A stretch of DNA of 64,000 nt from NCBI RefSeq assembly GCF_005049285.1, contig NZ_SOSC01000001.1, positions 248,001-312,000 on the forward strand, read 5' to 3'. Shown here piece by piece: positions 32,376 through 42,728 of the stretch. The position numbers were made by a program, and so were the translations under genes. The stretch comes from Halorientalis salina. Lineage in GTDB: Archaea; Halobacteriota; Halobacteria; Halobacteriales; Haloarculaceae. Below the pieces are notes generated by a model. That model ran no database searches, was not told where the DNA came from, and saw only the letters and a list, made by a program, of their open reading frames with translations. How positions within the stretch are numbered: the stretch's first letter is position 1; each line of letters opens with the position of its first letter.

Positions 32376-33221
32376 ATGCCAACACTTGCGCTGGACGACG
32401 TCGATCTCCAGTACGAAGTCACGGGCGAGGGCCAGCCGCTGGTCTTCGTTCACGGCGGATGGATGAACGGCGACGCCTGGCGGACACAGGTCGAGCGGTT
32501 CGCAGCCGACTACCGGGTGATCACCGTCGACCTCCGTGGGCACGGTCGGACGGGCGCGACAGATACGCGGCAGTACTCGATCGAACTGTTCACCGACGAC
32601 CTCGAAGCGTTGTTGGCACACCTGGACGTCGAGCGGCCGATACTCTGTGGGCTCTCGCTGGGTGGAATGGTCGTCCAGGAGTACCTCGACCGGCACCCTG
32701 ACGGGGCGGCCGGTGCGATCGTCGCCGGCCCGGTCCGGTCGATGCCGCCGTTCGAGATTCCCAGCGGCTTCAAACCGTTCGTCTCGCCGCTCCCGATGCT
32801 CGCGACGACGCTGTCTGTCGCCGGGTCGGCGGCCACCTTCCAGTCGCTGTTGGCCTCCATCAGGCCCGTCAACGGTGGCCCCTGGCTCTCGGTCGACCCC
32901 TCGATCCACTCGTGGGCGAGAAGCGCCGTCGGCGACATCGACAGCAGCGAGTTCCGGAAGATCTTCAGAGCGCTCTACGAGTACGATCCGCCGACCCTCT
33001 CCCACGTCACCACGCCGACGCTCGTCGTGTACGGCGACCAGGAAGTGTCGCTGGTCAAAAACCAGGGCAAACGACTCGGGTCAGCCGTCCCCAATGGCAC
33101 GGTCCGGGAGATACCCGACGCCGGCCACCTGGTCAATCAGGACAATCCCGAGGCGTTCAACGCCGCCCTCGCCGAGTTCATGGCCGGCCTCTCGACCGAC
33201 GACCGACAACCGGCGGCCTGA
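32376..33221 (+). CDS. Alpha/beta hydrolase
   Basis: 281 aa, canonical fold: HGGW oxyanion loop (VFVHGGWMNGDAW), nucleophile elbow GLSLGGMVVQEY (Ser), acidic residue after VVYGDQE, and catalytic His in IPDAGHLVNQDNPEAFN. No signal peptide; cytoplasmic. Candidate reactions include esterase, epoxide hydrolase-like or C-C hydrolase; substrate unknown. ATG at 32376. Its TGA stop is also the first codon of the hairpin element that follows. Confidence 0.88.
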   Translation: MPTLALDDVDLQYEVTGEGQPLVFVHGGWMNGDAWRTQVERFAADYRVITVDLRGHGRTGATDTRQYSIELFTDDLEALLAHLDVERPILCGLSLGGMVVQEYLDRHPDGAAGAIVAGPVRSMPPFEIPSGFKPFVSPLPMLATTLSVAGSAATFQSLLASIRPVNGGPWLSVDPSIHSWARSAVGDIDSSEFRKIFRALYEYDPPTLSHVTTPTLVVYGDQEVSLVKNQGKRLGSAVPNGTVREIPDAGHLVNQDNPEAFNAALAEFMAGLSTDDRQPAA

Positions 33222-33304
33222 TACGGTTTGCTGTAGCTGTGTACCGCTACGATCGCCCGCAATTGGGCGATCGATGCGGAAATGATCTACAGCAGTCCGT
33301 ATGA
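33219..33304 (+). repeat. Imperfect hairpin element, copy 1
   Basis: An 86-base imperfect inverted repeat: two 40-base arms (30 of 40 paired) around a 6-base loop GCAATT, with a perfect inner stem GATCGCCC/GGGCGATC. It begins with TGATAC, whose TGA is the stop codon of the preceding hydrolase gene, and ends GTATGA. The same end sequences, spacing and GCTRTARCT box occur in a second copy at 41553-41636. It sits between convergent genes, so it could also end transcription. A small non-autonomous element (REP/MITE-like) is my preferred reading. Confidence 0.6.
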
Positions 33305-40997: not shown

Positions 40998-41225
40998 TCA
41001 CCGCGCGTACAGCGGTTGCCCGAGCAGCGTCGGCAGGCGCACGCCCTCGTCGGGCGAGACCGCGACGTACGGCCTGTCGACGGGGCCGAACACGTCGACG
41101 ACCCTGCCGATCTCCGTCAGGTTCTCGTCGACCACGTCCATCCCGAAATCGGGGTGGTCGTCGTCGGGGCAGCGCACCACCGCGAGGTTCTGGGCGGTCC
41201 GAACGACCTCACCGATGCGTTTCAT
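40998..41225 (-). CDS. gar1: H/ACA RNP protein Gar1
   Basis: 75 aa, beta-barrel core of Gar1: [19 protein letters not shown], followed by [34 protein letters not shown], the family hallmark (IGxVxDVFGPVxxPYVxV). It binds Cbf5 in H/ACA guide-RNA pseudouridylation complexes and tunes substrate release. Short and without the GAR repeats of eukaryotes, as in archaea. Start ATG overlaps the srp19 stop (ATGA). Confidence 0.95.
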
Positions 41226-41500
41226 GACCGAATGACGTCGAGGTAGGCCGCGACCGCGCCGAGCAGGTCGCTTTTGGTCGCGTCCTCGGCGTTCTTGACG
41301 AGGACGCGGCCGCGGGGCTCCCACTCGCGGGAGTACTGTTTGTCCCGTTCGATCTTCGAGTCGTAGCCGACCTGCTGGACGGCCTGGGCGATCTCGTCGA
41401 CTGTCGGGTCCGATACGGCGAGGTCCTCGCTGACCCGCCGCCCCTCCGCGCGGGTCAGGTCCGCGTCCAGAAACGCGGGCCAGATGACGTTTTCCACCAT
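41222..41500 (-). CDS. srp19: Signal recognition particle 19 kDa protein
   Basis: 92 aa: [39 protein letters not shown] (opening WPxxxD and RxEGRR SRP RNA contacts), then [28 protein letters not shown]19 binds helices of 7S RNA and promotes SRP54 loading for co-translational membrane targeting. Translationally coupled to gar1 by a four-base overlap, a common archaeal arrangement. ATG start. Confidence 0.96.
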
Positions 41501-41552
41501 GTGTACTCCAAAACTCCCCGTCGCTTAAGGGGTTTTCTGGTCTGACCGTGAC

Positions 41553-41636
41553 TCATACTACCGGCTATACTCACATGGAGAGTTTCGACACCTCGGGGTG
41601 TCGAAATCTGCCACGAAGTTATAGCCGGCAGTATCA
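41553..41636 (-). repeat. Imperfect hairpin element, copy 2
   Basis: Written on the minus strand it begins TGATAC at the btuF stop codon (TGA at 41636-41634) and ends GTATGA. Extended arms of 43 bases at 41550-41592 and 41597-41639 pair in 32 of 43 positions around a 4-base loop, with a 9-10 bp perfect inner stem (TTTCGACACC/GGTGTCGAAA). The outer 20 bp and the GCTRTARCT box match copy 1 at 33219. It lies between btuF and srp19, which are tandem, so a terminator-only role is less obvious here. Confidence 0.6.
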
Positions 41637-42728
41637 GTCCCTGCACGCGAGCAGCGCGGTCGCCAGCAGCGACGCCGCGGCGACGGCGAATCCGAACCCA
41701 GGACCGCTCGAACTGCTCCCCGTCGTCGTCGATTCGTTCGGCGTCGTCACGTTCGCCATCGTAACCGACTCGTTGGCCTGGGCTAACTCCTCGGAGTTCC
41801 ACTGTTTCGCCAGTTGCGTGAGTGGACCCGCGACACGCGGCCCGGGCTGGCTGATGAAGTCCTCGTTCAGTTCGACGGTCTGACCCTGCCGTATCGCCGT
41901 CGTCTCGTTGTACGCCGCGGTGTTCGGGGCCGAGGCGTGACCCGGGTAGAGGATCCAGTCGGGGTCCTGCTCGACGGCGACTTCGGGATTCAGTTCCGCG
42001 TATGACTCGATCCCGACCTCGGCAGCGACGTTGTCACCGCCTGCCGTCTCGATGACGTCGTGGATGTGCGTCTCGCTCCCTGCCGTATAGCCGAAGAAGT
42101 AGTACAGAACGCTGGGTCGCTCGTCCGCGAGTTCGGCGGCGCGTTCGACGGTCCGAACGTCGAGTCGGAACTCGTTTGCCTGCTCGGTCGCGGTCTCGCA
42201 CTCGCCGACGAGACTGCCCACGGTCTCGACGTTTCGCGCGATCTCGTCGAGCGAGGTGACCAGTCCGAAGTGATAGACGGTCAACCCAGCACGTCGGAGC
42301 TCCCGAACCGTCTCGGGATCCGTCGTGTTCGAGGCGATCACGAGGTCGGGCTGTTGGCCGATGACCTGCTCGATATTGACGGTCCCGTCGTCGTTTTTGA
42401 TGTTCGTCTTCCCGCTTCGCCCGTCGAGGTACGAGGTGTACTGAGTCCGGGCCATTCCGACGACGCGATCCTGTGCGCCGACTTCCCAGGCGAGCTGTGC
42501 GTCACTGGGCTGCAGGACGACGATGCGTTCGGGTTCGGAATCGATGCGCACCGTCTCGCCGGTCGCGTCAGTCCGTTCGACCGGGAACGAACACTCCGAC
42601 TGGGCGGCGTCCATCGATCCCGCCCCATCCGTTGCCGACGGAGCCGCTGCCGTTGCCGTTCCCACTCCGCCCACACAGAGACTCGCGAGTAACAGACAGA
42701 CCGTAAACAGCGTCGCGTGTGTTGTCAT
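41634..42728 (-). CDS. btuF: Vitamin B12 ABC transporter substrate-binding protein (BtuF-like)
   Basis: 364 aa. An N-terminal Sec-type signal (VCLLLASLCVGGVGTATA), then the periplasmic-binding fold of TroA/BtuF type: SEPERIVVLQPSDAQLAWEVGAQDRVVGMARTQYTS, QVIGQQPDLVIASNTTDPETVRELRRAGLTVYHFG. The C-terminus, after a Thr/Ser linker, has GPGFGFAVAAASLLATALL, a PGF-CTERM-like archaeosortase tail, so it is probably anchored on the S-layer side by lipid after processing. Divergent from btuC with 61 bases between. Corrinoid binding is inferred from the neighbours; a siderophore is the alternative. Confidence 0.85.
   Translation of the reverse strand: MTTHATLFTVCLLLASLCVGGVGTATAAAPSATDGAGSMDAAQSECSFPVERTDATGETVRIDSEPERIVVLQPSDAQLAWEVGAQDRVVGMARTQYTSYLDGRSGKTNIKNDDGTVNIEQVIGQQPDLVIASNTTDPETVRELRRAGLTVYHFGLVTSLDEIARNVETVGSLVGECETATEQANEFRLDVRTVERAAELADERPSVLYYFFGYTAGSETHIHDVIETAGGDNVAAEVGIESYAELNPEVAVEQDPDWILYPGHASAPNTAAYNETTAIRQGQTVELNEDFISQPGPRVAGPLTQLAKQWNSEELAQANESVTMANVTTPNESTTTGSSSSGPGFGFAVAAASLLATALLACRD

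Follow-up and report, generated by a model that had tools for sequence, protein, structure and literature searches.

The 84-bp hairpin at positions 41553-41636 (minus strand) of the window, a 64,000-nucleotide stretch of a 3.66-Mb haloarchaeal draft genome, is probably a non-autonomous, palindromic, MITE-like mobile element that was moved in trans, with duplication of a TNA target and restoration of the stop codon in which it landed.

Anatomy and distribution of the element

On the minus strand, the hairpin reads TGATAC...GTATGA and is made of a 78-bp palindrome (TAC...GTA) held between two direct copies of TGA, in the order TGA, TACTGCCGGCTATA...TATAGCCGGTAGTA, TGA (Table 1). The outer TGA on either side stems from the target, where it forms a direct repeat, and lies outside the palindrome, whose terminal inverted repeats measure 14 bp. 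The first-pass annotation of the window had already placed a hairpin with TGATAC...GTATGA ends and an inner stem with a 4-base loop at these coordinates, and all of this was confirmed, the stem being 10 bp long. The letters of the ends are thus correct, but they do not form a single unit, as a TNA target duplication is joined to TAC/GTA inverted ends. Similarly, the hairpin does start at the btuF TGA, but what had been treated as an anatomical detail is a systematic target of insertion. The RNA of the minus strand has a predicted fold of -51.4 kcal/mol, with z = -10 against dinucleotide shuffles, and the hairpin is thus not a product of chance. Once the element is taken out, 52 bp separate the stop codon of the btuF-like gene from srp19.

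Table 1. Features of the element, of the neighbouring genes and of the other copy in the window
Feature	Position	Strand	Remarks
btuF-like periplasmic binding protein gene (Peripla_BP_2)	41634..42614	-	Insertion host
First TGA	41634..41636	-	Ends the btuF-like gene as its stop codon; also the left copy of the 3-bp target repeat
Element proper	41556..41633	-	78-bp palindrome, sub-family B
Terminal inverted repeat, stop-codon side	41620..41633	-	TACTGCCGGCTATA
Inner hairpin	41583..41606 (arms 41583-41592 / 41597-41606)	-	10-bp stem and 4-base loop; copies differ by compensatory changes
Terminal inverted repeat, far side	41556..41569	-	TACTACCGGCTATA when read inward along the plus strand
Second TGA	41553..41555	-	Right copy of the target repeat
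srp19 (PF01922)	41222..41500	-	Tandem gene downstream
Alpha/beta hydrolase gene	32376-33221	+	Stop codon is the first TGA of window copy 1
Window copy 1	33219..33304	+	Sub-family A; palindrome of 80 bp (33222-33301) with a TGA on either side

A genome-wide scan gave many dispersed hairpin copies rather than none beyond the two in the window, and the repeated family that had been proposed for this genome is therefore real. In the window genome, where 51 copies were examined, elements built like this hairpin form three sub-families. According to DNA searches, sub-family A comprises about 38 copies, including window copy 1; sub-family B the element at 41553-41636 and about four relatives; and sub-family C copies of about 108 bp with the ends TACTGCCGGACAGAA. 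The two window copies had been taken as members of one family. Indeed, their build is alike, but their arms are different, so that one belongs to sub-family A and the other to sub-family B.

Relatives of sub-family B are also present in five other genomes of the family (66, 54, 48, 42 and 27 matches, with some copies counted twice as they match both strands), in Haloarcula, Halomicrobium, Haloplanus and Natribaculum plasmids, and in many other haloarchaeal genomes, which agrees with the earlier mention of similar repeats in Haloarcula/Halomicrobium-like genomes. Overall, the elements are non-coding, measure either 78-80 bp or about 108 bp and reach dozens of copies in other genera, and 78 bp is the modal length among the haloarchaea outside the window genome (71 of some 100 short pairs). 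The end pattern of sub-family B is matched exactly by 22 IMG/VR viral contigs, a match of the ends alone that may reflect either whole elements on haloarchaeal viruses or chance.

Target-site duplication and insertion at stop codons

In 107 of 123 full-length copies, the two flanking 3-mers form an identical direct repeat, mostly TGA or TCA and, in a minority, TTA/TTA or TAA/TAA. Copies with TAA or TTA on both sides were also found in other haloarchaea (12 of 97), where the search pattern itself demanded matching sides; the two-sided match is a measured quantity in the 123-copy set and in the stop-codon sets of the window genome and other genomes. The flanking repeat is a TNA target-site duplication, and the element thus behaves like a MITE. 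Since the interior of the element occurs in both orientations relative to TGA, the TGA is part of the target rather than of the element.

Empty counterparts of occupied sites provide further evidence of mobility. On plasmid pLC1Hm-01 of Halomicrobium sp. LC1Hm, the end of an ABC-transporter gene reads CTTCTGA[78-bp element]TGAGCGTACTC, and the corresponding site on the H. mukohataei plasmid is ATCACTGAGCGTACTC, with a single TGA. An M48 protease gene has an element in its stop codon in H. hispanica, and this stop is empty in H. marismortui and H. sinaiiensis. The same stop codon carries strongly diverged B elements in Haloarcula CBA1115 (540-905 of the locus) and in H. hispanica (1440-1740 of the locus), in flanking DNA that is about 95% identical, and these may represent either two insertions or one insertion that has diverged. 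As for the junction in the window, the stop codon of btuF and the start of srp19 are separated by only a short spacer, free of any element, in six genomes of the same genus. Conservation of the arms together with the flanking genes across species had been named as the finding that would point to a gene-specific structure, and what these junctions show is instead the absence of the element.

Stop codons are strongly over-represented among the insertion sites. Genes were called with a home-made codon-usage caller, on which the stop assignments mainly rest, run on flanks joined as empty sites with one codon model per group, and background rates were taken from 464 kb of the window genome and 400 kb of a second genome (G010). 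Although copies share ancestry, insertion sites are separate events. Of the 41 copies with matching flanks in the window genome, 36 coincide exactly with a gene's stop codon, while stops account for 15% of TGA/TCA sites outside coding sequence, or 30% when the preferred C before TGA is considered. A 12-position preference model, trained on 89 non-stop insertions from other genomes, predicts 36% against the 88% seen (p = 8e-12). The copies found on stops were 11/38 in G010, where the copies are the best of longer sets of matches, and 9/18 and 15/26 in two further genomes; in stretches from other haloarchaeal genomes they were 43/87, against 12% expected (p = 1e-17). NCBI annotation also places the end of several genes on the TGA of an element, namely the CPBP and M48 genes of H. 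hispanica, the CPBP gene of CBA1115, HMUK_RS15770 of H. mukohataei and a stress-protein gene of H. urmianum; for a third H. hispanica copy, the annotated gene does not end there. Our search of the open-access literature gave no account of haloarchaeal elements targeted to stop codons, and the habit looks undescribed in that literature.

Two copies with other surroundings were also observed. An element of the window genome that lies away from protein stop codons (C19) has a right flank that resembles the T-arm of a tRNA gene (GGTTCGAACCCC). In another genome (G131), a C-type end stands directly at a TAA stop codon (1486-1520 of the locus) with no recognisable second end.

Selection and RNA function as alternative explanations

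The stop-codon copies of the window genome are found between convergent genes (16) as well as between tandem genes (20), which bears out the earlier remark that a role limited to ending convergent transcription does not fit. None of the 20 tandem copies occupies a gap shorter than 30 bp, although such gaps separate 82 of 204 tandem pairs in the background (p = 1e-4); 13 of the 16 convergent copies, in contrast, do lie in gaps of this size. Thus, the elements avoid operon-like junctions and persist at the ends of transcription units.

Such a distribution could be generated by selection alone, if insertion were random at any TNA and the excess at stop codons were simply what selection leaves. 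We regard this as rather unlikely, although genes are closely packed and offer few harmless sites, insertions at operon-like junctions are missing, and G010, with its near-identical and thus probably young sampled copies, shows a smaller excess than the window genome with its more diverged ones. A comparison with the sites next to stop codons speaks against it. In the window genome, a single insertion lies within 50 nt downstream of stops against 36 on stops, even though the eligible non-coding TSA sites are 286 in this 3' zone and 308 at stops. Of these 37 insertions, 19 to 25 should have fallen on stops, against the 36 that did (p between 8e-6 and 1e-9). As neighbouring sites would be expected to fare alike under selection, selection alone looks insufficient. 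In addition, one orthologous GH2 stop codon has been hit by two sub-families: it holds a B element in LC1Hm and one of A-like type in H. mukohataei.

An RNA function was also considered, namely that the hairpin is a domesticated element of the mRNA 3' end, kept for ending transcription or protecting the transcript, with mobility merely as its origin. The hairpin is very stable, compensatory changes keep the inner stem paired, and copies stand at the ends of transcription units, away from operon-like junctions. However, upkeep of the palindrome may serve transposition instead, and orthologous loci exist without the element. A bacterial-type intrinsic terminator, that is, a GC-rich hairpin followed by a T-run, was rejected, as the T-run is absent and 0 terminator-like sites were found at 41400-41800; the hairpin also matches no Rfam family. 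In other genomes, the TGA-sense RNA folds better than the antisense, but the same difference is seen in non-stop copies and is not significant in the window genome, so that the folding bias was dropped as proof of RNA function. Taken with the evidence on both sides, we hold that maintenance for the sake of the transcript is unlikely. A stop-codon element would also account for a class of haloarchaeal post-stop hairpins that might otherwise be mistaken for terminators or regulatory RNAs.

Mobilisation and relation to known systems

Under the favoured reading, that of a mobile MITE-like element, a transposase acting in trans would open a TNA site, mostly C-TGA, with a cut staggered by 3 bp, and the 78-bp hairpin would be inserted with duplication of the TNA. 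In a TGA or TAA stop codon, this duplication would rebuild the stop, and the host protein would thus be left unchanged. The concentration on stop codons may then have two sources, namely a target preference that stop codons meet unusually well and the loss of insertions from coding DNA, promoters and operon junctions. Dispersal, the TNA repeat, empty sites, the target motif, the concentration on stop codons and the avoidance of operon-like junctions were all observed here, while a DDE-type transposase acting in trans and the respective shares of target preference and insertion loss are inferred. An element that lands in a stop codon and rebuilds it represents a solution to the harm that insertion does in a dense genome. 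Should the preference stem from the transposition machinery, it would provide a gene-end-targeting system open to direct study. It is doubtful that the machinery recognises stop codons or transcription-unit ends as such, for instance via the terminating ribosome or the 3' end of the transcript; if it did, the elements would have a built-in safe harbour, with a target duplication that restores the stop, and a minimal mobile element would display a translation- or transcription-coupled mode of targeting.

The orientation of the elements bears on the type of transposase. In LC1Hm, 13 of 14 informative copies have their TACTGCC end towards the TGA and their TACTACC end away from it, so that insertion is oriented relative to the target strand. 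Family A of the window genome shows a weaker bias, with both orientations occurring. An orientation bias relative to TGA would be unusual for a DDE transposase and counts against one. A single-strand HUH/Y1 transposase of the IS200/IS605, PATE or REP type, with TGA as the cleavage motif at both ends, would fit this bias, the whole-element hairpin with its compensatory changes and the precise empty site, but it is very unlikely, since both flanks change together (TTA/TTA, TAA/TAA), unlike an element-encoded right end, and family A is found in both orientations.

Among known systems, the MITEs and the small mobile repeats (SMR) of Haloquadratum walsbyi come nearest, and the MITEs share their ends with known transposons (PMC3119063). 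According to the excerpted part of that report, they resemble the elements described here in being short and mostly non-coding, with terminal inverted repeats, target duplications, many copies and mobilisation in trans; they differ in that no end-sharing transposon was found here among the loci searched, and that stop-codon insertion goes unmentioned for them in the same excerpt (PMC3119063). The excerpt also describes the Haloquadratum repeats SMR-A and SMR-B, which make no target duplication and insert into other mobile elements (PMC3119063). These are of similar size (80-110 bp) and, as here, have prominent inverted ends, a high copy number and no known parent transposon; a strong target preference is common to SMR-A and the present elements, which in contrast make a TNA duplication and insert mainly in the stop codons of ordinary genes. 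REP elements are given as 20-40 bp in the consulted part of another report (PMC3733652). REP/REPIN sequences with RAYT transposases are likewise extragenic palindromes in many copies, often 3' of genes, but the present elements are 78-80 bp, nearly fixed in length and bounded by TNA repeats. The IS200/IS605-derived PATE have neither inverted terminal repeats nor target duplication, whereas the elements here have both. Short non-coding repeats, terminal inverted repeats and target-site duplication were all found here, and we rate the element as a further form of the MITE or small mobile repeat kind.

The search for an autonomous partner covered several sources. To our knowledge, the TAC...GTA ends match no IS end. 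IS5-family transposons of the IS1031 type make a 3-bp TNA target duplication, as do the present elements, but no transposase with these ends was found, and no IS5-family transposon matched them among the transposase loci examined. A transposon sharing the ends was not found in the PF01609 loci of 4 genomes, PF13359 was absent from the 5 genomes examined for a partner, and a non-exhaustive search of 2 Mb of sequence and of GTDB genome stretches gave no partner with matching ends. A scan of 116 genomes of the family for family C ends returned short copies only. A literature search with the exact end sequences retrieved no relevant paper, and the matches in unrelated studies look like chance. Long end pairs in the GTDB stretches were rejected as they mix different sub-families or have poorly matching ends, and the genes between neighbouring elements at two loci have reading frames that are not transposase-like. 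The sole long TCA-to-TCA pair, found in G010, was also set aside, as it results from the insertion of an unrelated insertion sequence into a B element. This insertion sequence is 1.4 kb long (1004-2498 of the locus), contains a 458-aa DDE transposase frame and is present in five copies there.
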